A DNA stretch of 64,000 nucleotides from the NCBI RefSeq assembly GCF_018274385.1, contig NZ_JAAFYZ010000010.1, forward strand, positions 1 to 64,000, read 5' to 3'. The DNA is from Catenulispora pinistramenti. GTDB lineage: Bacteria > Actinomycetota > Actinomycetes > Streptomycetales > Catenulisporaceae. The number at the start of each line of letters is the position of its first letter. Within the stretch, counting starts at the first letter, position 1. Below the pieces are notes generated by a model. That model made no database searches, was not told the origin of the DNA, and saw only the letters and a program-made list of their open reading frames with translations. This document shows, piece by piece, positions 4,527 to 36,424 of this stretch. A program made the translations under genes and the position numbers.

Positions 4527-5852
4527 TCAGGCTGACAGGTCCAGTCCTGCTTGGGCCCATGCCTGCTGGACGGTCCGGATTTCGGCATCGGTGGGTCGAG
4601 CTGCGCGGATGGGTGAAAATCGGGCGGCGATGATCACGCGGCGGAGCTTGGCGGCCATGTCGGTGAACGCGGGCTCGGCCTTGGTGGTGTACCAGGGCTG
4701 GCGCTCGCGGCGGTCGGCGATGTCGGCGGGCTGGTGGCCGTGCAGCGTGTACCAGACCACGACGATCGTGTAGCAGTACAAGGCGAACGGGGTGGTGCGC
4801 TCGACGGCCTTGCGGGCGCGGTTGCGGGCTTGTCCTGCGCCGAGGTACTCCCGTGTCTCGGCGAAGGTCACTTCGATGGACCACCTCCACGCATATCTGG
4901 ACACCAGTGCCGGGGCCTCGCCGACGAGGTCGGTGGTGACCAGGGCCAGATCGTAGGCGGTGTTGGTGGCATCGTCGCGGATCAGCACGACGCGGACGAT
5001 CTGGGTGTGGAACGAGCCGTACCACAGGCACCGGATCTCGGCGATGTGCACGGTGTCGACGCGGCCGTATCGTCGGACCTGCACGGTTCGGAACTTCGCG
5101 GTCGCCGCGAGGTCGGCGGGCTTGCCCAGGCGGCTGCCTTTGAGCGCCGGCCTGCCGCGTTTGCCGGTCGGCGGCGGGGCCAGGTCGTAGAGCACGGCGG
5201 ACGCCGGGAGCCGGGTGGTGACGGTGATCGGGCTTGGGAGGTGCCGCAGCGCCGGGCCGTGGTAGGCGGCGTCGGCCACGACGTGGATCCGCGCGTCGCG
5301 GTGCCACAAGGCGATCAGCTTGACCAGGGCGGCGGCGATGTCGACCTTGGACGTGTCGGTCTTCGGCCGCCAGCGCCTGGCGGCCACCGGCAGGCAGAAC
5401 GGCCGGGAGCAGAACGGCAGCTCCACGATGATCCCCATCACCACGAAACAGACCCCGTACCCGACCGGCTTCTCGCTGCGCGAGGCCCCGTCGTGCTGCC
5501 AGCCCGCGCCGAACACCTTCTTGCCGCGCTTCTTGAACAGCGTGTCGTCGATTGCGACAGTCAGCGCCGCGCCGTCGGGCAGCAGCGTCCTGACGATCAG
5601 CCGCGACAGGCACATGCCCAGGGTGTCGCTGCTCCAGGAAGCGCGGGAGAAGAACGCATGCGCCCGGTCGTGCGACCAGCTCTGGGCCAGCCCGGCCGAG
5701 GTCAGCATCCCGGTCACCGTCCCCGCCCCGGTGTTCGCCACCAGACCGGTCACCAACGCGGTGAAGGTGGCGAAGCTTGGCGCGGTGAACACCCACCGCA
5801 GGTTCTGCAACACCGCTGCCCACGAGGCGGGTAGCGTCGGAGACGGAAGCAT
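4527..5852 (-). CDS. DDE transposase, IS701-like (DDE_5 fold)
   Basis: This 441-residue transposase has the DDE_5/IS701 pattern: AIDDTLFKKRGKKVFG (first Asp, near residue 145), VVADAAYHGPALRHL (second Asp) and WSIEVTFAETREYLG (Glu). Between them lies the conserved segment WYGSFHTQIVRVVLIRDD. Length is normal and the frame is intact, so it could be active. It is close over its whole length to the protein at 15249-16571. The start codon lies inside a 13-bp inverted repeat, which suggests translational control of transposase synthesis. Confidence 0.9.
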   Translation of the reverse strand: MLPSPTLPASWAAVLQNLRWVFTAPSFATFTALVTGLVANTGAGTVTGMLTSAGLAQSWSHDRAHAFFSRASWSSDTLGMCLSRLIVRTLLPDGAALTVAIDDTLFKKRGKKVFGAGWQHDGASRSEKPVGYGVCFVVMGIIVELPFCSRPFCLPVAARRWRPKTDTSKVDIAAALVKLIALWHRDARIHVVADAAYHGPALRHLPSPITVTTRLPASAVLYDLAPPPTGKRGRPALKGSRLGKPADLAATAKFRTVQVRRYGRVDTVHIAEIRCLWYGSFHTQIVRVVLIRDDATNTAYDLALVTTDLVGEAPALVSRYAWRWSIEVTFAETREYLGAGQARNRARKAVERTTPFALYCYTIVVVWYTLHGHQPADIADRRERQPWYTTKAEPAFTDMAAKLRRVIIAARFSPIRAARPTDAEIRTVQQAWAQAGLDLSA

Positions 5853-5897: not shown

Positions 5898-5988
5898 TCT
5901 CACGTCGGGAAACGCCAGTCGCCAACCACTGCAAACCGCCCGATCAGGCGCAACCGGTCACGACTGCGAAAACGTCGAAAGTCGAGGG

Positions 5989-6432
5989 GTCAAACGGCTG
6001 AACCCGAAGGCGGTTCCCGAAGGCCAAGGCGAGCTGTTCTCCGTCTGGCGCCACCATGCCTTCCTCACCGACGACACCCTGGTCATCGAACAGGCCGAGC
6101 CGCGCCACCGTCACCACGCCGTCGTGGAGCAGGTGTTCTCCGACCTGGAGAACGGGCCGTTGGCCCATCTGCCGTCCGGGCGCTTCAACGCCAACGCCGC
6201 ATGGCTGGTCCTCGCAGCGGCCGCGTTCAACCTGATGCGCGCCGCCGGACGCATCGCCTCGCCGTTCCACGCCAAGGCCACCGGTGCCACGCTCCGCCGG
6301 ACCCTGGTCAACGTCCCGGCCCGCATCGCCACCAGCGCCCGACGAATCCGCCTGCACCTACCCGAACACTGGCCCTGGGCCTGGGAGTTCGAACGCCTCA
6401 TGACCCGCACCGGCCACCGACTAACCAGCTGA
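5989..6432 (+). pseudogene. IS1380-family transposase, C-terminal remnant
   Basis: About 148 codons match the C-terminal end of IS1380 transposases: EQVFSDLENGPLAHLPSGRF, NAAWLVLAAAAFNLMRAAG and LHLPEHWPWAWEFERL are characteristic. The N-terminal two thirds, including the first catalytic residues, are absent, and no remnant is seen on the far side of the IS701-like copy 1 that abuts it. The open frame runs on into copy 1 by chance. The downstream IS1380 terminus probably lies between 6433 and about 6600. Confidence 0.8.
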
Positions 6433-6928
6433 CTAGAGCAAAACCCCACGTCAAACCACGAATCAGGACCCTCGGAACCCCCGCCACGGCCGGACAGCCG
6501 GACCTTCGGCATGCCCGGACCCCCCGAGATCGACCGAACCAGCAAGACCATCAGAACCCTGCACTCAAAGGAGTCTCATCCGTGGATCCAGGCTCAATCT
6601 GCCTTCATCCGGTGACGAACCACTAACACGGCATCGACCTCGACGAAGCTGTCTTGGCCGTCCCTCAATGGCCTCCAGCACGACCAATCAGTGCACTCAA
6701 GCGTGCTGCTTGGAATGATTGAAGCAGTCTTCTGAAAGACATCGACTACTGATGAGGAGAGACCAACTCCAAAACGATGCTTCCCACAGTAGAGTCGCTG
6801 TTCAGGAAGAGTCGGCCCCGCGCGAGCGGGGTAAACACCGGCCACGGGCAAATCCCCACTTGACCGGATAAGGTGCCGCTCGTGGAGGAGCCAGTATCCA
6901 AGGGAGGGAGTCGAGCGGGCCGCTGTCT
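6433..6928. other. Intergenic region downstream of the immunity gene
   Basis: This contains the presumed end of the IS1380 remnant (GGATCCAGGCTCAA near 6582-6595) and spacer DNA. No supported coding sequence is present. The longer open frame on the minus strand across 6594-7037 overlaps the immunity gene and has no recognisable features. Confidence 0.35.
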
Positions 6929-7354
6929 TCAGTCCGCCTCCGCTACCATTCCGGAGGCCACCAGATCCTCGGTTGACCAGGGGCCGCCGCTGAAGAAGAG
7001 CGAGGGCTCGTAGTAAGCGACCGCCGCCTCCCGCCAATGCGGTTGGCCGGACTGCACGAAGCCTTGGCGACCGCCGCTCTCCAGGAGGTACACATCGATC
7101 GTATCGTCGGGCAGCCCGTGCTTGGCGATCACCTCGCGGAGCTCGTTGCCGCAGGCGGGCCGGATCACCAGCCCTTCCATCTCTGGGTAGACGAGCATCA
7201 GGCCGACATTACCGAAGTAGATCTCGACCCGAGTCGCCAGCCCGCCGTCCTGTTCGCTCGTGAACCGCATCGACCGATGGGTGAGCCCCTCGACGCTCTT
7301 CAGCCGGAAGTGGCGCTCCGACCGGAAAGCCTCCACAGGTTCCGCGCCCGTCAT
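6929..7354 (-). CDS. Putative immunity protein for the adjacent polymorphic toxin
   Basis: A 141-residue acidic protein whose ATG overlaps the toxin stop codon by four bases (ATGA), so the two are translated as a coupled pair. Position directly after a HINT-containing toxin is the standard place for the cognate immunity gene. I do not recognise the fold. Visible features are a strand-rich N-terminus (FRLKSVEGLTHRSMRFTS), a central VEIYFGNVGLMLVYPEMEG and an acidic C-terminal tail. The role is inferred entirely from context. It would neutralise the C-terminal domain of the toxin in the cytoplasm. Confidence 0.65.
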   Translation of the reverse strand: MTGAEPVEAFRSERHFRLKSVEGLTHRSMRFTSEQDGGLATRVEIYFGNVGLMLVYPEMEGLVIRPACGNELREVIAKHGLPDDTIDVYLLESGGRQGFVQSGQPHWREAAVAYYEPSLFFSGGPWSTEDLVASGMVAEAD

Positions 7355-10300
7355 TTCTGGCCCGCAATCGTCATCAGGCTGTCCCAGTCCGGCGGAGGGA
7401 TGAACTGGGGGCTATCGCCGCCGCCGAGGCCGCCGATCTCCAGACCGTTGGCGTACCAATGGATTTCGTTCCATTCGCGTTCTTCCCTGCGGGTGTTGAA
7501 ACCCAACACGCTAATCTCCCAGTTCGTGCCTTCGCCCGAATTGGCGATCCCCTGAAAATCGGTCCCATATTGCTTGGTAACCGCCACGCCTCGCACGTAC
7601 GCATTGTAGTACGCGAGCGAGAAGTTGGTGAGGCCGTCGATATGGGCCTTCAATGCGGTCTTCCGGTCGGCGGTCAAATCCCTTCGCGCGTCGACAAGGC
7701 CCTTGAGGTAGTCGCGGGTGGGGCCTTCTGTCGTCGAGTCGAGGCCTTTGAGTCCTCCCAGTTCGACGGCGAGCGGCACGTTGGGATCCTTGGTCACCTT
7801 GAGAACCGCGTCCATCCATTTCGGCATGCTCCCCAGGTTGTTGGGATCCACCGGGTCTCCCCAGGGCTTCCTGTTGTTGTAGGTCATCGCCGGCTCGCCC
7901 ATGGCGTTCTTCTGCGCGGCCAGGGCATCGCCCTGCGCCCCCATCCCGAGCACGACCATGCAGCTGGTGGTGTCGGTGTTGTGGACCAGGACCGGCGAAC
8001 CGCCGTGGCTCACGTAGTAGGTGTGCAAGCCGTCGATGGTCAGGTCGTACGTGACCATCGATCCGGTGTAGTCGGAAACGGACTGCACGGTCGCTGTAGA
8101 GCCGTCGGCGGACTGAAGCCGATCTCCGGCCCTGAGCTTTCCAGCGGGAACGAAACCGCCGGCGGTGTAGTCGTAGTAGGGATGGTTCTGGGTACCGGTG
8201 ATGACCTGTGTGCCGGCCGACGTGTTAATCGTGAGATCGGTGTAGTCGGTGTCCGCCGTGGTCCTGTGGACCAGGCCGACCCGGTGTTGCTGGCGATCCG
8301 CGACACCGGCGGCGGAGTTTGCGACCAGGTCGTCGACCCGCACGTCCTGGATCGGCTCGTTCGAGCCGTCGGCCATGAGCACGTCCGTGCCCGCGGCGAA
8401 GCTGTGGCCGCACGCCGCGAACTGCTGCTGGACCTCCTCGGCGACCTTCGCCTCGATCTTGGCCGCGAGCTGGTCATCGGTCTCCGCCAAGGCGGCGTCG
8501 CCACCGAGGACGTCCCCCGCGGCCTCGCCAGCGATCGGCCCCGCCATGATCGCGGCGGACTCCGCAGCCATCATCGCGAAGAGGGTGTCGGTGGTGCCGC
8601 TCAGCATGTAGTCCGCCGCCGCGGCACACAACCCGCCAACCGCTGGGACCTCGCACAAGACCACGCCACCATAGACGGTGCCAGCCGTGGCCACCACCAT
8701 GCCGAACAGGGTCCACTTGGCGTGGTTCACGGCCTTGTTGAAGGCCTTGCAGTCCGGGGTGCCCGAGTTCGCCTGGCAGAACGTCTCGGGGTCGTTGGCC
8801 ATCTGGATGATCTGCGGGTCGTCGAGGTACATACCCTGCGCGCCGGGCCAGGACAGCACCAGGCGACGAGCCTTGAGCTGCTCAAGGATCGCCTCGTGCA
8901 GGGTCGCGTTCGACTGTGCGTAGGTGTCGTCCTGCGTCGCCGTGTTCTTAGCCGCTTGGTCGGCGGCCGCCTTGGCCGCCGCATCGGCGTCCGCGCGTGC
9001 CTTCGCGTCCGCGTCGGCTGCGGCTTGCTGTGCGGCGGCGGCGTCCGAATTGGCGGTGGTCGCGGCTGCCGCGGCGGTGTCGGCTGATTTCTGGGCGGCG
9101 GCCGCCGAGTCCTTGGCCCCGGCGGCTTCGGTGGCGGCGTCGTTCGCCGCGGTGTGAGCGGCGGCGGCGTCTTTTTCGGCGGCGGTCGCGGAGCCGCTGG
9201 CGGCGGAGGCGTCTGCCGAGGCCGTGTCCGCGGCCGTGTGGGCGCTGGCGGCGTCGGCCGCCGCCTGGCTGGCCGCCTGGGTCGCGGCGGCGTCCGCGGA
9301 CTGCGTCGCCGCTGAGTCTGTGGCGGCGGCCAGGGCGGACTGCCGTGCACTGTTGGCGGACTGTTGCGCGGTCACCGCGTCCTGGGCGGCTTGCGAGGCG
9401 GCGGTGGCCGCGGCCTTGGCGTCGCCGTTCGCTTGGTCCGCCAGTGCCTTCGCGGCGGCGGCGGCCTTGGCAGCCTCGTCGGACGCTGCCTGCGCGGCAG
9501 TGTCCTGTTGCTGGCTCAGGGTCTTGGAGTCTTGTCCGATCAGTACCGCGAGTCCGGCAGCGGCATCGGTTTCCTGATAGGGGGCGCCGAACTGGACCGC
9601 CTTGTTGCGCGCATCCACTGTCTTGGACGCGGAGTCGCGTGCGGCGAGAGCCGCAGCAGCTGCTGCCTGCGCGAAACCGGCGGTCTTGATCGCGCCGGCA
9701 GCGGCCTGGTTCGCCTCGGAGCGCGCGGTGTCCGCGTCGGCCTGGGACTTGGCGGCCGCAGATGAGGCGTTGTTCGCGTCGTTCTGCGCGTTGGTGGCGT
9801 TCTGCGCCGCCTGGCTCGCGGCATTGATGGCGTCCGCGGCGGCGGCGTGCGCGGTAAGCGCGGCGGCCGCGGCGGCATCTCGTGCCGCATCGGCGCCTGC
9901 GGCGTCGGAGTTGGCCTTGGCCGCCGCCGACGAGGCACGAGTGGCATCGGCACGCGCGGTCACCGCGGCCTGTGCGGCGTTGTCCGACGCGGTCTGAGCC
10001 GCCGCGGCGGCTTTGGCGGCCTGGGTGGCCGCCGCGTTCGCCTTGTTCGCCTGATCCTGCGCCAAACCCGCGGCCTTGGTGCCGACCGCCGCGGCGGCGG
10101 TTGCGTTCGCAGCTTGAGCGTGCGCGTCCGCCGCGTCCTTCGCATTGGCGGCGTTGACCGCGGCGTCGCGGGCGGTGGCTGCCTGGGACTCGGCGGCGAC
10201 GGCGGCGTCAGCCTTCGACTTCGCCTGGGCGGCGGCCTGGTCGGCGACACCGTGTGCGTTCGCCGCATTGGTCTTTTGAGTCTCCGCCTCGCCTTCGTTC

Positions 10301-15248: not shown

Positions 15249-16571
15249 TCAGGCTGCTGTGTCGAGTCCTGCTTGGGCCCAGGCGTGCTGGACCGCGCGG
15301 ATTTCGGCATCGGTGGGTCGGACCTGGTCGTTGGCCATAAATCGGGCGGCGATGATGACGCGGCGGAGCTTGGCGAGCATGCCGGAGAAGGCCGGGTCGG
15401 TCTTGGCGGTGTACCAGGGCCGGGCGGCGCGGTGGTCGGCGGCGTCGTTCCGGTGGTGGCCGTGCAGCGCGTACCAGACGACGGTGATCGAGTAGCAGTA
15501 GAGGCCGAACGGGACGGTGCGGCGCACGGCGTTCTCGGCGCGGTTGCGGGCCTGGCCGACGCCCAGCAGGTCGCGGGCCTCCGCGAACGTGACCTCGATG
15601 GACCAGCGCCGGGCGTATCTCCTGATCAGGTCCGCCGCGGTGGCGGCAAGGTCGGTGGTGACCAGGGCCAGGTCATAGCCGGTATCGGTGGCGTCGTCCC
15701 GGAGCAGGATCACGTGCACGGTCTGGGTGTGGAAGGAGCCGTACCACAGGCAGGTGCGCTCGGCGAGATGCACGGTGTCGGTGCGGCCGTAGCGTTTGAC
15801 CTGCGCGGTGTTGAACGTCGCGGTGGCGGCCAGCTCGGCCGGGGCGCCGAGGCGGTCACCTTTGAGCCGCGGCCGGCCGCGTCTGCCGGTGGGTGCCGGT
15901 GCGAGGTCGTAGAGCACGGCGTTGGCCGGCAGCCTGGTGGTGACGGTGATCCGCTCGGGGAGGTGCCGCAGGGCTTTGCCGTGGTAGGCGGCATCGGCGA
16001 CCACGTGTAGCGGCCGGTTCAGGCACACCGCCAGCAGACGGACCATGGAGGCGGCCAGCTCGACCTTGGACGCGCCGGTCTTGGGCCGCCACAGCCGGGC
16101 CATCACCGGCAGGCACACCGGCCGGGTGAGAAACGGCAGCTCGACGATGATCCCGACCACCACGAAGCAGGTCCCGCGGCCGACCGGCTTGTCGCCGACC
16201 GCCGCGCCGTCGTGCTGCCACGCGCCCCCGAAGACCTTCTTGCCGCGCCGTTTGAACAGCGTGTCGTCCACCGCCACCGTGACCGCCGTGCCGTCGGCGG
16301 GCAGCAGGGTTCTGACGATCAGGTGGGCCAGCACGATCCCCAGGATCTCGGCGTTCCACGCCGAGCGGGAGAAGAAGCTGTGCGCCCGGTCGTGCGACCA
16401 GCTCCGGGCCAGCCCGGCCCCGGTAAGCATCCCGGTCACCGTGCCCTTGCCGGTCTGCGCGACCAGCCCCGTGACCAGCGCGGTGAACGTCGCGAAACTG
16501 GGCGCGGTGAACACCCGCAGGTTCTCCAGCACCGCCAACAGCGATGCGGGTACGGTCAATTCTGGAAGCAT
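15249..16571 (-). CDS. DDE transposase, IS701-like (DDE_5 fold)
   Basis: A 440-residue homologue of the 4527-5852 transposase, alignable end to end but with many substitutions. Catalytic segments are AVDDTLFKRRGKKVFGG, VVADAAYHGKALRHLPE and WSIEVTFAEARDLLG. The reading frame is intact and length is normal. It reads leftwards, with the passenger gene 108 bases upstream on the same strand. As in copy 1, the ATG falls within a perfect 13-bp inverted repeat. Sequence divergence from copy 1 argues for separate acquisition. Confidence 0.9.
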   Translation of the reverse strand: MLPELTVPASLLAVLENLRVFTAPSFATFTALVTGLVAQTGKGTVTGMLTGAGLARSWSHDRAHSFFSRSAWNAEILGIVLAHLIVRTLLPADGTAVTVAVDDTLFKRRGKKVFGGAWQHDGAAVGDKPVGRGTCFVVVGIIVELPFLTRPVCLPVMARLWRPKTGASKVELAASMVRLLAVCLNRPLHVVADAAYHGKALRHLPERITVTTRLPANAVLYDLAPAPTGRRGRPRLKGDRLGAPAELAATATFNTAQVKRYGRTDTVHLAERTCLWYGSFHTQTVHVILLRDDATDTGYDLALVTTDLAATAADLIRRYARRWSIEVTFAEARDLLGVGQARNRAENAVRRTVPFGLYCYSITVVWYALHGHHRNDAADHRAARPWYTAKTDPAFSGMLAKLRRVIIAARFMANDQVRPTDAEIRAVQHAWAQAGLDTAA

Positions 16572-30997: not shown

Positions 30998-31245
30998 GCG
31001 GGGCGGTGAATCAGACCGGCGCCTTGCCGCCGCTGGGCCAGGTGGTTCGTGAGGCCCGGCTGCGGGCGGGCCTCACCGAGGAGCAACTGGGGCAACGTGT
31101 CGGCTACTCGGGCGCCAGTATCAGCCGCTTTGAGCGGGGCAAGCAGCCACTGCGGGACGTGGTGCTGCTCCGGTCGTTCGCGACCGCGTTGGGGTTGGAA
31201 CCGCGGGAGCTGGGGTTGTCCGATGCTCCGCTACCGCGCAGGTAG
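30994..31245 (+). CDS. Small XRE-family helix-turn-helix regulator
   Basis: An 83-residue protein that is almost wholly an XRE domain: LGQVVREARLRAGLTEEQL, GQRVGYSGASISRFERGKQP and LLRSFATALGLEPRELG. The recognition helix is SGASISRFERG. No sensor domain is present, so an input partner is expected, and the co-translated TPR protein is the natural candidate. Its 3' end overlaps the convergent kinase gene by 15 bases. Likely target: the divergent palindromic region at 34349-34397 or its own promoter (inference). Confidence 0.85.
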   Translation: MSGAVNQTGALPPLGQVVREARLRAGLTEEQLGQRVGYSGASISRFERGKQPLRDVVLLRSFATALGLEPRELGLSDAPLPRR

Positions 31246-32079
31246 CGGCGGCCCGATCAAGGCTTGGACGCGCCTTTCCAGCGCGGGGCGGAGGTCCAGG
31301 TTGTCGCCTCGGGTACAGCTCTGGAGTAGCTCCGTGGCGATCGCCAGCTGGGCGAACCTTCCGGCGCTGGTATCCAAGATGTCGGCGAACGCCTTGTACA
31401 CGCTGGCGGCGGTGCGCGGGGCCAGCAGCGAGTAGGTGTACAAGGTGGCGGCGTCGTAACCGGCCGGCGCGGCGCCGAAGCCCTCCAGGTCCAGCAACCG
31501 AAGGTTCGGGGCAGTCAGGTTGGCGAAATGGATGTCCCCGTGTGCGGTGGTCCAGGCTGGTGCCCGCGTGGCGCGGCCGGCGACGACATTCATGAACCGG
31601 GGCATGGTCCGGTCCAGGTAGTCCTGGCTGATCACAGTGCGGTCGGTGTCGACGGCAGCGATGATCGCCAAGTTGGCGCGCAGGTCGTCGAACCACTCCG
31701 CGGGTAGCTCCAGCTCGGTGCGCAGCACCGAGTCCGGCGAGCACACCGGGTCGGTGACGAACTCGGTGAGCTCGGCGCGGTAGGCAACGCCGTCCACCTC
31801 CCAGTCGTGCAGCGCAAGCAGCGCCGGCTTGGCCAGGTTCGGCATCAGCTGGTCGGCCCGCTCGGTGCCTTCCCAGATCTTTCCGCCGGCCTGCCCGGCG
31901 CGAGCGGACTGGATCCGCAGCCACGCCGGGCCGCTGGCGCCATCGACCCTGGATCCGATGGTGCGGCCTCGCCAGCCCCAGACCGGTGCTCCGTCCGGGG
32001 TGCGCTCGAACGCCGCGGCGGCGTGCTGCTGGGCTGCCAGCATCCTGGTGGCGGTGGCGTCGTCAATCGGCGAGAACAT
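31231..32079 (-). CDS. APH-fold phosphotransferase/kinase
   Basis: A 282-residue aminoglycoside-phosphotransferase-like kinase. The catalytic loop TTAHGDIHFANLTAP (HGDxHxxN) and the metal-binding LRLLDLEGFG (LLDLE in place of the commoner IDW) are clear, around residues 182-206. The N-terminal lobe is short (WLRIQSARAGQAGGKIWEG). It is the last gene of the peptide-JmjC-AKR-kinase operon and overlaps the AKR gene by 17 bases. Substrate could be the operon's product (phosphorylation as modification or self-protection), but this is speculation. Confidence 0.75.
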   Translation of the reverse strand: MFSPIDDATATRMLAAQQHAAAAFERTPDGAPVWGWRGRTIGSRVDGASGPAWLRIQSARAGQAGGKIWEGTERADQLMPNLAKPALLALHDWEVDGVAYRAELTEFVTDPVCSPDSVLRTELELPAEWFDDLRANLAIIAAVDTDRTVISQDYLDRTMPRFMNVVAGRATRAPAWTTAHGDIHFANLTAPNLRLLDLEGFGAAPAGYDAATLYTYSLLAPRTAASVYKAFADILDTSAGRFAQLAIATELLQSCTRGDNLDLRPALERRVQALIGPPLPAR

Positions 32080-32950
32080 CGGTGACCTCTCGGAGGATCG
32101 CGGCGGGAACCGGCTGCGCGGCGACGGTATCAGCGGCCTGCTTCCAATGCTCGGGGGTCGAGGCGGACACCAGGACCCGCGACACGCCGGGGACCGAAGC
32201 CACCACGGCGAGCGCGGCCTCGGCCGGCCCGAGACCGTCCCCGATGAGGGCGGCCAACTCGGGCGTGATGAGGGACGGCAGTTCGCCGCCGTGCAGCGGC
32301 GAGGAAGCAAACACTTCAATGCCCGCGCTGGCAGCGGCGCCGATCGGGCCGACGCCGTCCAAGGCTTGGACGATCGGCCCTATGTTGACCAGGCTAACCG
32401 GCAGCTGGATCGCCCGCAGGTGGTGTGGCTCGCCCCAGGCCGCAGCGTCCGCCATGTCGATCAGGGCGGGAACGGTGAACGCGCCAGAGGAGAAGCCGTC
32501 CCAGGTGGCAATGCCGTAGCCAGCTATATGGCCGGCGGCTGCCAGTTCCTCCAGTTCCACGAACGCGGCGAACACAGCACCGGAGGTGGTGCGCTCGGGG
32601 TTGTGCAGAAACAGGGTGTCAATCTTGTCGCGACCGAGCTCGTCCAGGGAGCGCTGGATCTGCCAGCGCAGGTAGCGCGGGCGGATACAGTGCCCTGCTT
32701 CCAGTTCTCTGCCTGGCATCGCCGCGTCCTCAACTGCGGCCTCGGTATCTGGGCGGTGGAAGAACCCGACCTTGGTGGATACCTGCACGTCGGGGTTGTC
32801 GGCCAGCACTGGCGCTAGGAGCTTCTGGGCTTGGCCGCCGCGGTAGTTGGGTGCGGTATCGATCCATCGCGCACCGCAGGCGACCGCGTGTACGGCCGCC
32901 TGCTCCACGTCTCGCACCAGGTGGGTGCCCAGCCCGATGCGCGCGTTCAT
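32063..32950 (-). CDS. Aldo/keto reductase family protein
   Basis: A 295-residue TIM-barrel AKR. Visible: GLGTHLVRDVEQAAVHAVAC, RWIDTAPNYRGGQAQKLL (catalytic Asp and Tyr), VSTKVGFFHRP (Lys), DTLFLHNPERTTSGAVFAAF (HNPE in the usual H-x-x-x position) and AGYGIATWDGF. The cofactor-binding C-terminal segment (VPGVSRVLVSASTPEHWK) is typical for NADPH. Length is normal. Its ATG overlaps the JmjC stop by four bases. Within the operon it would reduce or oxidise a carbonyl created on the peptide or a small substrate. Confidence 0.85.
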   Translation of the reverse strand: MNARIGLGTHLVRDVEQAAVHAVACGARWIDTAPNYRGGQAQKLLAPVLADNPDVQVSTKVGFFHRPDTEAAVEDAAMPGRELEAGHCIRPRYLRWQIQRSLDELGRDKIDTLFLHNPERTTSGAVFAAFVELEELAAAGHIAGYGIATWDGFSSGAFTVPALIDMADAAAWGEPHHLRAIQLPVSLVNIGPIVQALDGVGPIGAAASAGIEVFASSPLHGGELPSLITPELAALIGDGLGPAEAALAVVASVPGVSRVLVSASTPEHWKQAADTVAAQPVPAAILREVTDVLAD

Positions 32951-34125
32951 CCTGGTAACACCTGTGCCACTCCCTGCCCAACCAACTCGCTGGCCAGGTC
33001 GGCCACGACATCGACCTTCAGCCCGGAGAGGTGCGCCAGCTCCCCCAGGGACCAGGCTTCGCCATCGGACAGCGCCTCCAGGACGCCCCAGGCCGCGGCA
33101 GCGAACGTCCAGGACTGCCCGCCGGCCTCGAACTGCACGCGGTCCTCCTCACTCTCGTGTAGAAGGGCGCGCGGAGTGAGCAGCCGCATGGTCAGCGCGG
33201 CGTCGGCCGGGACACCGTCGACGAACGGCAGGCTGAGGCCGGTCCGAGCGGGCTCGGTGCCGTCGGCGTGGGCGGCGAAGCGCAGCAGCAGGTCCGGGCG
33301 CTCCAACTCGGCGATCAGCTGCTTGCGGAACAGGTCGAGGTAGGCCTCCTGCTCCTGTGGTCCAGACAGGATCGGCAAGTCCTCGCGGAATAGCGCCATC
33401 CCCCGCAGATCATCGGCAAGGAACGTCACCAGGTCCACGCCGGTAGCCACGCCCAGACCGAAGGTCAGGTGCAACGAGTGCTGGCCCGGCACTGCGGCCA
33501 CGTCGTGCCAGTGCCCTCGCGGCACGTACAGCACGTCCCCAGCGGACAGCACGAACTTATCGATCGGCTCGCCGGTCGGCTCCTCTGGCAGTTCGGTGTC
33601 GCGGTGCAGTGGCGCTGGACGGGTCGGGCCGAACAAGCGCCAGTGTTTGGCGCCGTCGAGCTGCACGATGATGGTGTCGTGGTCGTCCCAGTACGTGCGG
33701 AACCCGGATTCGGGGCGCCAGGAGGCGTATACGTTGGCCTGCACACTGGTGTGGAACTTCTCCTCCAGCGCCGCGGCCAGCCGCCGGATCGGAGCGTGCA
33801 TCTCATCGATCGCGTCCACAACCAGCGTAGCGCCCTCGACCAGGCGCCGGTTGAGCTCGCCGGTGTTCAGCCGCTGCCACCGCACGCCACGCCGGCTGTT
33901 GACCGTTGTGGTGTAGGCGCCCTGGTCCAGCGCAGTCCCGCCGACGGCCAGGCGTAGCCGGGGGGTCTCCAGGCGCTGGCTGGCCAAGATCTCGTTCAGC
34001 GCATCCCAACTCAACAGGCCGCTGACGTCCTGGGCTTCGCCGGGAAAGACATGGTGGCGGCGTCGGAACGCCTGGGCGAGGAAGTCCCCGCCCAGGCGGC
34101 CGACGACCGGTTCGGTCGTCGTCAC
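32947..34125 (-). CDS. JmjC/cupin-4 family oxygenase
   Basis: This is a 392-residue cupin of the RoxA/MINA53-like JmjC group (2-oxoglutarate/Fe(II) hydroxylases). The double-stranded beta-helix is seen from ~140 on: YWDDHDTIIVQLDGAKHWRL holds the H-x-D pair, and VLYVPRGHWHDVAAVPG with HSLHLTFGL supplies the second His region. A C-terminal winged-helix-like domain (ALSDGEAWSLGELAHLSGL) follows, as in RoxA-type enzymes, which hydroxylate protein side chains. The GTG start lies five bases after the stop of the 46-residue peptide gene, making that peptide the obvious candidate substrate. Confidence 0.83.
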   Translation of the reverse strand: MTTTEPVVGRLGGDFLAQAFRRRHHVFPGEAQDVSGLLSWDALNEILASQRLETPRLRLAVGGTALDQGAYTTTVNSRRGVRWQRLNTGELNRRLVEGATLVVDAIDEMHAPIRRLAAALEEKFHTSVQANVYASWRPESGFRTYWDDHDTIIVQLDGAKHWRLFGPTRPAPLHRDTELPEEPTGEPIDKFVLSAGDVLYVPRGHWHDVAAVPGQHSLHLTFGLGVATGVDLVTFLADDLRGMALFREDLPILSGPQEQEAYLDLFRKQLIAELERPDLLLRFAAHADGTEPARTGLSLPFVDGVPADAALTMRLLTPRALLHESEEDRVQFEAGGQSWTFAAAAWGVLEALSDGEAWSLGELAHLSGLKVDVVADLASELVGQGVAQVLPG

Positions 34126-34130
34126 AGGTG

Positions 34131-34271
34131 TTAGCCGATCCGGTTGTCGTTGAGGTCCGAACGGCCCGTGCCGCCGCCATCCGAGGGCTGGGCGGAGCGC
34201 ACGCGGGCCTGCTTGATGGCGGTACGTGCGATCACGAGACCGGCGTCGTTGCTCGGCTTCGAGGCATCCAT
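34131..34271 (-). CDS. 46-residue candidate RiPP precursor for the JmjC operon
   Basis: The ATG at 34271 is preceded by AAGGGGAA. The peptide begins MDASKPSNDAGLVIARTAIK, continues with an Arg-rich QARVRSAQPS, and ends DGGGTGRSDLNDNRIG. A helical leader-like first half followed by a Gly/Ser/Asp/Asn-rich tail fits a precursor whose C-terminal Asp, Asn or Arg residues are oxidised. It is immediately followed, five bases on, by the JmjC/cupin gene. It has no signal peptide and no cysteine, so it is not a lanthipeptide or thiopeptide precursor. Confidence 0.6.
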   Translation of the reverse strand: MDASKPSNDAGLVIARTAIKQARVRSAQPSDGGGTGRSDLNDNRIG

Positions 34272-34348
34272 GAGGTTCCCCTTCACAGGTTGGCACCACC
34301 CGGATCGGACGGCGTCTGTCGCAGAACCCTGCTGGCGATCCAGGCGCG

Positions 34349-34503: not shown

Positions 34504-34668
34504 GTGGCCAAGAAGAGCAAGCCGGGTGACGGCACCGAGGGCTGCGGGGTCAAGGGCGGCGGCCTGTACGGCGCCCACTTCGCCGTGGCCGACCCGCAGG
34601 ACGCTGCGAGCCCGATCCGCTCGATCGTCAGCCTGATGCGCTTCCTGCGTACCTCGCGCACCGCCTAG
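34504..34668 (+). CDS. 54-residue candidate RiPP precursor for the Asn-synthetase-like enzyme
   Basis: The GTG at 34504 has AGAGGAG nine bases upstream. The peptide starts MAKKSKPGDGTEGCGVKGGG, passes through LYGAHFAVADPQDAASPIRS and ends IVSLMRFLRTSRTA. A Gly-rich first half with one Cys, one Asp-rich turn and a basic amphipathic C-terminus make it unlike a housekeeping protein. It ends 14 bases before the amidotransferase-like gene, whose ribosome-binding site overlaps its stop region, so co-translation is likely. It lacks the leader and ring pattern of known lasso precursors. Confidence 0.55.
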   Translation: MAKKSKPGDGTEGCGVKGGGLYGAHFAVADPQDAASPIRSIVSLMRFLRTSRTA

Positions 34669-34682
34669 GAAAGGAGATGGCC

Positions 34683-35963
34683 ATGGGTTCGGGTACCGTC
34701 TTGGCGAACCGGCTGGCGCTGTGGCTGTCCTGGCCAGCGATCATCGGCGAGTTCGCGCCGTGCCCGCTGTTGGGAGCGCCTCCCGCGCCTTCCCCGGCAT
34801 CCAGCCGTCCCGACGACACCCGACCCGTGGCCGACATCCGCGGGCCGTTCAGCGAATCGGTCCGGGACTGCATGGGCGACCACGAGCGCATCGGAATATC
34901 GGTCTCCGGCGGGCTCGACTCGCTCGCCGTCCTCATCGAAGCGGCACGGATAGCCGACCAGGACGGCCGCCGCATCGTCGCGGTGATGGCGGAGATGACC
35001 GACGACGCCGGACTTTCCAACGTCCCCGTAGTCCGCCGCCTTCTCGCGGCCTCCGGCCTTGGCAACATCGAACTCCACATCACCGCAGCAAGGGACACCC
35101 CGACCAGCGAACCCGACTGGCATCCCGAAGGCCCCAACCTCGCTGCGCTTCCATCAGTCAAACGAAGCCTGCTGGAGAAAGCCGCCGATCACGGCGCTAC
35201 CGTGGCGATCGGCGGAAGCGGAGCAGATGAGCTGCTGGGCACGGTGCGCTACATGTTCGGGATCTTCACCGCCGCCGGTGACTGGCGGGCCCTTCGTTCC
35301 TACTGGTCGGACACCATCGGGAAAGACCGCCAGGCGATCCCCGGCGAAGGGTTGGCGCTGGCGACCCGGCTGCTCCCTCGTGCCTGGCGTTCGCACCTGT
35401 ACTTCGCAACTGAGTGGCCGGAGCTATCCGTTCAGAAAGTGCCGGAGATCGTCTCAGCGGCACACCACGATCAAGTCGCTTCCTGGTCGGCACAGTGGAT
35501 CACCAGAGTCCTGAAGCACCACGCCACACGCCACCAGACATGGGCGCAGATGGCCGCATGGGACGCCGTGTTCCCCCTTTACCTCCCGCCCGGACCCGGC
35601 CCCATGCCACTGAAGCACCCCTTCCTCACCCCGAACTTCGTGGCCGCCGCCCAGCGGCTCCCGCTCGCGCGCCGCTACGACCCGACCCTGCCTCACGCGT
35701 ACTGGCGACAGAAGGCCGCCGTCATCTCCCTCATCCCAAAGACGATGCGCAGCATCCTCCCGACCGCCAAGCAGACGTTCCGCAACGACCTAGCTTCCCG
35801 CTACATGGCCGGCAAAAGCGACGCAGCAAACCTCATCGCCTGCGGCGTCATTGATGAGAAAGCGTGGATGGCGACCAGCGACCCATCGCTCGTAAATCGG
35901 GTAAACGCGCTCGAATCGTGGATCCGTGAAGCCGACCACCGCGGATACAGCATTCGCAGCTAG
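34683..35963 (+). CDS. Asparagine-synthetase-like PP-loop enzyme
   Basis: A 426-residue protein with the ATP-pyrophosphatase loop ISVSGGLDSLAVL near residue 75 and the downstream GGSGADELLGTVRYM typical of asparagine synthetase C-terminal domains and of lasso-peptide macrocyclases. The N-terminal glutamine-hydrolysing domain of true AsnB is absent: only ~50 residues of unrelated sequence precede the PP-loop region and there is no Cys2. ATP-dependent amide or isopeptide bond formation on the peptide encoded just upstream is the best guess. I chose ATG 34683 because AAGGAG is properly spaced. ATG 34677 would abut the site. Confidence 0.75.
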   Translation: MGSGTVLANRLALWLSWPAIIGEFAPCPLLGAPPAPSPASSRPDDTRPVADIRGPFSESVRDCMGDHERIGISVSGGLDSLAVLIEAARIADQDGRRIVAVMAEMTDDAGLSNVPVVRRLLAASGLGNIELHITAARDTPTSEPDWHPEGPNLAALPSVKRSLLEKAADHGATVAIGGSGADELLGTVRYMFGIFTAAGDWRALRSYWSDTIGKDRQAIPGEGLALATRLLPRAWRSHLYFATEWPELSVQKVPEIVSAAHHDQVASWSAQWITRVLKHHATRHQTWAQMAAWDAVFPLYLPPGPGPMPLKHPFLTPNFVAAAQRLPLARRYDPTLPHAYWRQKAAVISLIPKTMRSILPTAKQTFRNDLASRYMAGKSDAANLIACGVIDEKAWMATSDPSLVNRVNALESWIREADHRGYSIRS

Positions 35964-36424
35964 CGATCCTCGTCGCCCGCAAGTCTCATCAAGACCGGAA
36001 ACATGCCGTCCTCATCGAGATCGAGGAGCAGGAAGCCTGCCTTCTTCAGGGCGGCGATGCTGGCCGCGTTGTCCGGCTCTACACCGCCCTTCAGCTCGCC
36101 AAGACCGAGCTGCAAAGCAAGTTCGATAAGCACTCGCAGAGCTTGTGTGCCGTGTCCAGAACCGCGAGATCCGGGGGCGATGTAGTAGGAGAAGTATCCC
36201 GTCTCTCCTTCGATCTCAAGGTCGATGAACCCGACAGCCTGGCCGGTCGCGATATTGGTGAAGAACCAGCCGCGACGCGATCTGCTAAATAGTTTGCGCC
36301 ACTCTTCGGGATTAGCGTAGGAGGCCAAATGCCGGTTGCCTTCGATGTCGCCAGCGAACCAACCACCGATACAGGAGAGGTCATCATCCGGTTTGATCTC
36401 GTTAAGCTGGGGCGTCTGCGTCAT
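35960..36424 (-). CDS. GNAT-family N-acetyltransferase
   Basis: A 154-residue GNAT of the RimJ/RimL-like type: NRHLASYANPEEWRKLFS, TGYFSYYIAPGSRGSGHGTQ (acetyl-CoA loop R-G-x-G-x-G), LGLGELKGGVEPDNAASIAA and LKKAGF. It converges on the Asn-synthetase-like gene and their stop codons overlap by four bases. It may acetylate the product of the neighbouring peptide pathway, as happens for some lasso peptides, but it could equally be unrelated. Confidence 0.8.
   Translation of the reverse strand: MTQTPQLNEIKPDDDLSCIGGWFAGDIEGNRHLASYANPEEWRKLFSRSRRGWFFTNIATGQAVGFIDLEIEGETGYFSYYIAPGSRGSGHGTQALRVLIELALQLGLGELKGGVEPDNAASIAALKKAGFLLLDLDEDGMFPVLMRLAGDEDR

Follow-up and report, generated by a model that had tools for sequence, protein, structure and literature searches.

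A four-gene operon in Catenulispora pinistramenti

The 64,000-nucleotide stretch of Catenulispora pinistramenti DNA analysed here (contig NZ_JAAFYZ010000010.1, positions 1 to 64,000; the window) carries a compact operon on its minus strand. In the order of transcription it consists of a putative precursor peptide gene (34131..34271; 46 aa, MDASKPSNDAGLVIARTAIKQARVRSAQPSDGGGTGRSDLNDNRIG), a gene for a JmjC-type 2-oxoglutarate (2OG) oxygenase of the RoxA/NO66/YcfD type (32947..34125; 392 aa), an aldo-keto reductase (AKR) gene (32063..32950; 295 aa) and an APH-fold kinase gene (31231..32079; 282 aa). A sequence-only reading had proposed these four genes as a peptide-modification operon; all four frames are confirmed as it had placed them, and so are the gene identities. 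The oxygenase matches PF08007 (Pfam, E 1.4e-24) and the reductase PF00248 (E 9e-23), and the kinase has the APH fold, as seen in its predicted model and in the PF01636 matches of its relatives.

The peptide gene starts with an ATG at 34271 and its stop codon ends at 34131. It does have the ribosome-binding site of its own that had been claimed for it, a Shine-Dalgarno sequence AAGGGG at 34283-34278, with a spacer of 6 nt. An alternative in-frame start, the GTG at 34286, gives a peptide of 51 aa, but the ATG agrees better with the alignment of relatives. Five bases separate the peptide gene from the GTG start of the JmjC gene at 34125, and the enzyme genes overlap, by 4 nt (ATGA) for JmjC and AKR and by 17 nt for AKR and kinase; spacing and overlaps are thus as first described. 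The peptide alignment has both leader and core motifs, with the family consensus GLLVAxRxIxAARxR...SDGGGTGRSDxND. In the window, the leader-like motif is GLVIARTAIKQARVR (34197..34241, minus strand), the counterpart of GLLVAxRxIxAARxR, and the putative core is SDGGGTGRSDLND (34146..34184, minus strand), where D31, G36 (with one exception), D39, N41 and D42 are conserved.

Conservation and mobility of the peptide and its operon

Is the small frame a gene? An open reading frame of 46 codons in DNA of 68% GC is not above chance by length alone. Its significance comes from conservation in position and sequence, from selection on its amino acids and from the constant overlap of the JmjC and AKR genes, which is -4 in all measured intact class-1 loci with an AKR (the classes are described below). 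The peptide profile was searched against 392 genomes of the order and, class-wide, against 297 genomes; a profile E < 1e-8 was taken as a strong match, and JmjC relatives with E up to 1e-78 as close (class 1). The order survey gave 45 strong peptide matches in 43 genomes. Weak peptide matches, in G383, G625 and G639, were left out of the counts. By comparison of coordinates with the JmjC survey and extra loci, a JmjC gene lies directly downstream in 45/45 (in G388 it is split by an insert). Conversely, the peptide is present at 42/44 class-1 JmjC genes in the same genomes; the remaining two are L052, which has lost the peptide, and L098, whose JmjC gene is altered in its 5' part. The peptide-alone search of the 297 class genomes added five more, each of which has the JmjC, AKR and kinase genes as well. 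The peptide recurs upstream of JmjC homologues in Catenulispora (C. pinisilvae), Streptomyces and Nocardiopsis.

Selection was assessed in sister pairs because the codons for the invariant Asp and Asn residues are almost all GAC and AAC, and these cannot discriminate coding conservation from conservation at the nucleotide level. Over 19 sister pairs, the ratio of nonsynonymous to synonymous differences per site (pN/pS) is 0.20, with 95 synonymous and 53 nonsynonymous differences (Fisher p ~3e-23). Between the window and C. pinisilvae, the corresponding substitution ratio (dN/dS) is 0.27 for the peptide, 0.21 for the JmjC protein, 0.15 for the AKR and 0.10 for the kinase. There are 19 core variants among 56 loci, and the pattern D...D-x-N-D is kept in all of them. 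The small frame therefore encodes a peptide that is conserved and under selection, and its association with the JmjC gene holds from either side. It has what a RiPP (ribosomally synthesized and post-translationally modified peptide) cassette asks of a precursor, being encoded, conserved and under selection, and it is linked to candidate modifying enzymes in homologous loci. The sequence-only reading had named conservation of the frame across other genomes as the check on its proposal, and disrupted frames or operons without the peptide as the refutation; the counts and the pN/pS answer both in the peptide's favour.

The loci fall into two classes. Class 1 has the order peptide-JmjC-AKR-kinase, and outside Catenulispora its JmjC proteins are ~40-50% identical to that of the window; the nearest named locus is that of C. 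pinisilvae, where the identity is 90%. One well-supported class-1 clade of the JmjC tree, with eight loci, is missing the AKR. The AKR is thus dispensable and is not supported as an essential partner. In class 2, the JmjC protein is ~30% identical to that of the window and is followed by an AKR, and the kinase gene is usually divergent. The class-2 peptide has a longer core, e.g. SDNAGSSGDAPWPGGDGN, and a leader related to that of class 1 (hhalign probability 87, E 3.8e-6). This class is found in Streptomyces, in another Catenulispora (G003), in G408 and on a Pseudonocardia plasmid.

Decaying copies were also encountered. L115 (G217) has a frameshifted peptide and a JmjC remnant, and L052 (G024) has JmjC and kinase genes without the peptide. 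In G308 (L100 1822-4339), a group II intron (RF00029) interrupts the JmjC gene where the catalytic HWDDHD motif is encoded; a contig end in G136 (L118) breaks at the same site. The insert in the JmjC gene of G388 (L114, about 5925-7835) is at a different site.

A JmjC relative is present in 39 Streptomyces plasmid entries. Among them is pSV2, where RefSeq annotates the peptide (WP_172682180.1), a cupin protein (the JmjC, WP_011116858.1), an AKR (WP_238843310.1) and a gene in the position of the kinase (WP_011116856.1), in that order. The leader-like motif and the core likewise recur on many Streptomyces plasmids, pSV2 included. Chromosomal copies are common as well. The flanking genes are mostly unrelated among loci; recurrent neighbours, all assigned by sequence appearance, are genes for helix-turn-helix (HTH)-type regulators and RsbW-like ATPases and, in five loci, a relaxase-like gene. 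The JmjC protein has no match in 50,697 phage records, and a phage origin was rejected on this count. Because it is carried on many Streptomyces plasmids, has unrelated flanks and is absent from the phage records, the operon is a mobile accessory cassette. PADLOC gave no match for the peptide or for any of the three enzymes, and a defence system was set aside.

Two of the Streptomyces plasmids, pSV2 and a plasmid of S. erythrochromogenes (L120, L123), have a Ku gene no more than a few kb from the cassette. The JmjC sequence also matches ~25 E. coli plasmid records. One of the E. coli plasmids, pHUSEC41-3 (L122 4339-7540), carries a distant JmjC gene next to genes for an ABC transporter and for a 227-aa protein that ends in a Cys/Gly-rich tail, VCGCSGKGCGAGCSCNSR; the arrangement resembles another JmjC-associated peptide system.

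The three enzymes and the neighbouring lasso locus

The JmjC protein has the ROX-type architecture, a JmjC domain followed by a helical and a winged-helix domain. Its AlphaFold model (predicted local distance difference test, pLDDT, 89) aligns over residues 1-391 with NO66 (Z 24.3) and YcfD (Z ~22; both VIA), the winged-helix domain included. This C-terminal domain (model residues about 312-390) consists of strands 320-326, 329-334 and 337-342 and helices 343-353, 360-367 and 371-383, and PF20514 (ROXA-like_wH) is matched by 6/23 relatives. D147, H207 and K160 are conserved in the family, and the Lys is expected to bind 2OG. The first metal-ligand His is present in 60/61 sequences, two of which are HFDDHD variants; the exception is the window. 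Here codon 145 (33691..33693, minus strand) is TAC for Tyr, where C. pinisilvae has CAC for His and other relatives also have His. The difference is a single base, T in the window for C in the relatives, and would therefore mean that function was lost recently or that the assembly is wrong at this base. With Tyr in place of a metal-ligand His, the JmjC protein of the window is probably inactive or altered.

In the AKR, the catalytic tetrad D31, Y36, K60 and H116 is invariant in 19 sequences, and the nearest solved structure by profile is IolS (1pyf, 4.4e-12). The kinase sequence of the window has no Pfam match by itself, although PF01636 (APH) is matched by 14/23 of its relatives. Since phmmer and profile searches of the Protein Data Bank with the kinase sequence gave nothing useful, it was identified by fold comparison. 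Its AlphaFold model (pLDDT 92.5) matches APH(3')-IIIa (Foldseek E 4.9e-7) and APH(4)-Ia (VIA Z 17.2), and also ComG (8agy, Z 14.9) and LxmK (9dk3, Z 14.4). The APH-fold signature, HGDxxxxN and a metal-binding Asp, is present as invariant H180-x-D182...N187 and D197; the motif reads HGD in the window and most relatives and HAD in some. Arg55 is invariant at the usual position of the beta3 Lys. Choline-kinase-type enzymes likewise use Arg at this position.

A lasso peptide locus of the lariocidin/triculamin type, on which the sequence-only reading was silent, starts 232 bp from the operon on the opposite strand and is divergent from it. It has a precursor gene (34504-34668, plus strand; NF050022, 5.5e-9) with the N-terminal core VAKKSKPGDGTEGCGVKGG, an Asn-synthase-like lasso cyclase gene (34677-35963, plus strand) and a GNAT gene (35960-36424, minus strand) that matches the proposed self-resistance gene LrcE and may serve in self-resistance. 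No B1/B2 protein was identified beside the locus. The lasso locus and the cassette are arranged alike in C. pinisilvae. The cyclase search matches 2/297 class genomes, that of the window and one other. Elsewhere in the window there are two similar transposase-like genes (4527-5852, DDE_5; 15249-16571) and, at 42640-64000, many consecutive genes whose sequences, by appearance alone, suggest phage structural or lytic functions.

A candidate RiPP-like cassette

The reading that we consider probable is that the operon is a self-contained RiPP-like cassette, in which the 46-aa peptide is the substrate and its core is modified by the JmjC oxygenase, the kinase and the AKR. The two-way linkage, the purifying selection, the leader/core layout, the related class-2 leader and the ATGA overlap point to this, as do the family-wide HxD...H triad with its Lys, the AKR tetrad and the HGDxxxxN/D motif of the kinase. 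Precedents for such a pathway are the JmjC/cupin enzymes BipG/PbsQ, the PF08007 proteins with RRE-like (RiPP recognition element-like) C-terminal folds and the kinase ComG, all taken up below. We infer the role of the peptide as substrate, and with it the modified residue, the order of steps and the role of the product. The N-terminal amphipathic segment, GLVIARxxIKQARVR, would be a recognition leader, probably for the JmjC winged helix. The JmjC enzyme would hydroxylate a side chain of the core, most likely that of an invariant Asp or Asn. The kinase may then phosphorylate a hydroxyl, either the new one or that of a Ser or Thr, in maturation or in self-protection of the producer. The AKR may reduce or oxidize a carbonyl or alcohol of the core, an accessory step that one clade would have lost.

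Several observations weigh against this scheme. The sequence models of the JmjC C-terminus match ROXA-like_wH, and there is no PqqD or RiPP recognition element (RRE) match; the winged helix is inherited from ROX enzymes and is for that reason no specific evidence, let alone proof, of leader binding. The usual substrates of ROX enzymes are ribosomal proteins. The JmjC protein of the window, with Tyr145, lacks the complete HxD...H triad, although the family has it. The core Ser38 was tried as a marker of the AKR target and rejected: seven of the eight AKR-less loci keep the peptide, and their cores, all Gly here, read ...GKGDGND, yet the correlation comes from a single clade with a single AKR loss in the tree, and L103 and L105 have Gly with an AKR present. 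The proposed pathway is, moreover, not a complete cassette for a secreted RiPP, as the flanks of 27 loci show no recurrent gene for a leader peptidase or exporter. Lastly, the core varies unusually little by the standard of antimicrobial RiPPs, which favours a conserved target or function over a diversifying antibiotic.

Other explanations draw on the same data. It is improbable that the JmjC enzyme keeps a ROX role on a ribosomal or cellular protein, with the peptide as a regulator, an adaptor or a translated leader that controls the operon. The full-length fold match to NO66, MINA53 and YcfD speaks for it, and the peptide gene has a place like that of an upstream open reading frame, with translational coupling; but its amino acids are strongly selected, those of the core above all, while synonymous change is tolerated. 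A kinase and an AKR accompany it, and the cassette is accessory and plasmid-borne, unlike ribosome maintenance genes. A toxin-antitoxin-like module for plasmid maintenance, where the enzymes neutralize a toxic peptide, is very unlikely. Compactness, frequency on Streptomyces plasmids and the HTH-type regulator genes common upstream would suit such a module, but PADLOC has no match, chromosomal copies are common, and three enzymes with redox and kinase chemistry make an unlikely antitoxin. The adjacent and divergent lasso locus in both Catenulispora species raises the thought that the operon is the tailoring and self-resistance arm of a triculamin-type cluster. There is very little to recommend this: the lasso locus has a GNAT of its own that matches LrcE, and every other tested cassette locus is without a lasso gene, the cyclase being matched in two of the 297 class genomes, so that a role in lasso tailoring was rejected.

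Compatible with the RiPP-like cassette, as a refinement of it, is the tentative idea that the kinase provides self-protection: the hydroxylated peptide would be an antibiotic, and phosphorylation would inactivate it in the producer. ComG, an APH-fold kinase that phosphorylates and inactivates the peptide corramycin in self-resistance (PMC10996006), is among the structural matches, and the kinase gene closes the class-1 operons and is divergent at most loci of class 2. Against this, ComG is one of many APH-fold kinases that tie near Z 14.9, which makes the match unspecific. There is also no conserved exporter, and the core shows very little of the variation seen in most antimicrobial peptides.

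How does the cassette compare with characterized systems? Each enzyme family is known, as are JmjC enzymes in RiPP pathways. In the biphenomycin RiPP, the JmjC/cupin enzymes BipG/PbsQ hydroxylate ornithine (PMC12707348, PMC12257519). The likeness lies in a JmjC-type 2OG oxygenase that acts on a ribosomal precursor peptide; however, the biphenomycin clusters use MNIO, B12 radical S-adenosylmethionine (B12-rSAM), arginase and TldD enzymes on aromatic/Arg motifs, whereas the cassette has an Asp/Gly/Ser-rich core with AKR and APH-fold kinase partners, as judged from the published descriptions of BipG/PbsQ. PF08007 JmjC proteins with RRE-like C-terminal folds, and bacterial homologues in RiPP-like contexts, have been described (PMC12710340). 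With NO66, MINA53 and YcfD/RoxA, the cassette JmjC family shares the full-length architecture (Z 20-24) and the metal- and 2OG-binding residues; but the known substrates of ROX enzymes are ribosomal proteins, and the cassette enzyme is accessory and fixed to a small peptide gene. The cassette kinase has its fold and catalytic motifs in common with ComG and LxmK. LxmK, from class V lanthipeptides, works in a dehydratase complex with LxmY. In the cassette no partner recurs besides JmjC and AKR, so neither the HopA1-like lyase nor the LanY expected of class V lanthipeptides and thioamitides is there. The lariocidin/triculamin lasso peptides are a different RiPP class, encoded in a separate operon outside the cassette.

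Neither the peptide nor any of the three enzymes reaches the cut-off of a curated NCBIfam model, and the open-access literature yielded neither the peptide family nor the JmjC-AKR-APH set; an unnamed listing elsewhere, in subscription papers or genome-mining supplements, is possible. The evidence suggests an uncharacterized family of enzyme-modified peptides, conserved as a unit across many actinobacteria and their plasmids. A bolder version, speculative and rather unlikely as a whole, is a new RiPP family in which an Asp/Gly/Ser core is hydroxylated and then phosphorylated and in which, for the first time, an AKR acts on a RiPP; the near-invariant core and the lack of a transporter would then point to a conserved intracellular, or a signalling or metal-binding, function carried on plasmids, and not to a diversified antibiotic.

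What, then, is the role of an almost unvarying peptide on Streptomyces plasmids? If the peptide is a substrate, the cassette represents a family of RiPPs that is compact (~3 kb), widespread and easy to study by experiment. RiPP pathways, where JmjC-type oxygenases are known, would be extended by an AKR and an APH-fold kinase, and the PF08007 proteins that have been flagged in RiPP-like contexts would gain a concrete precursor.

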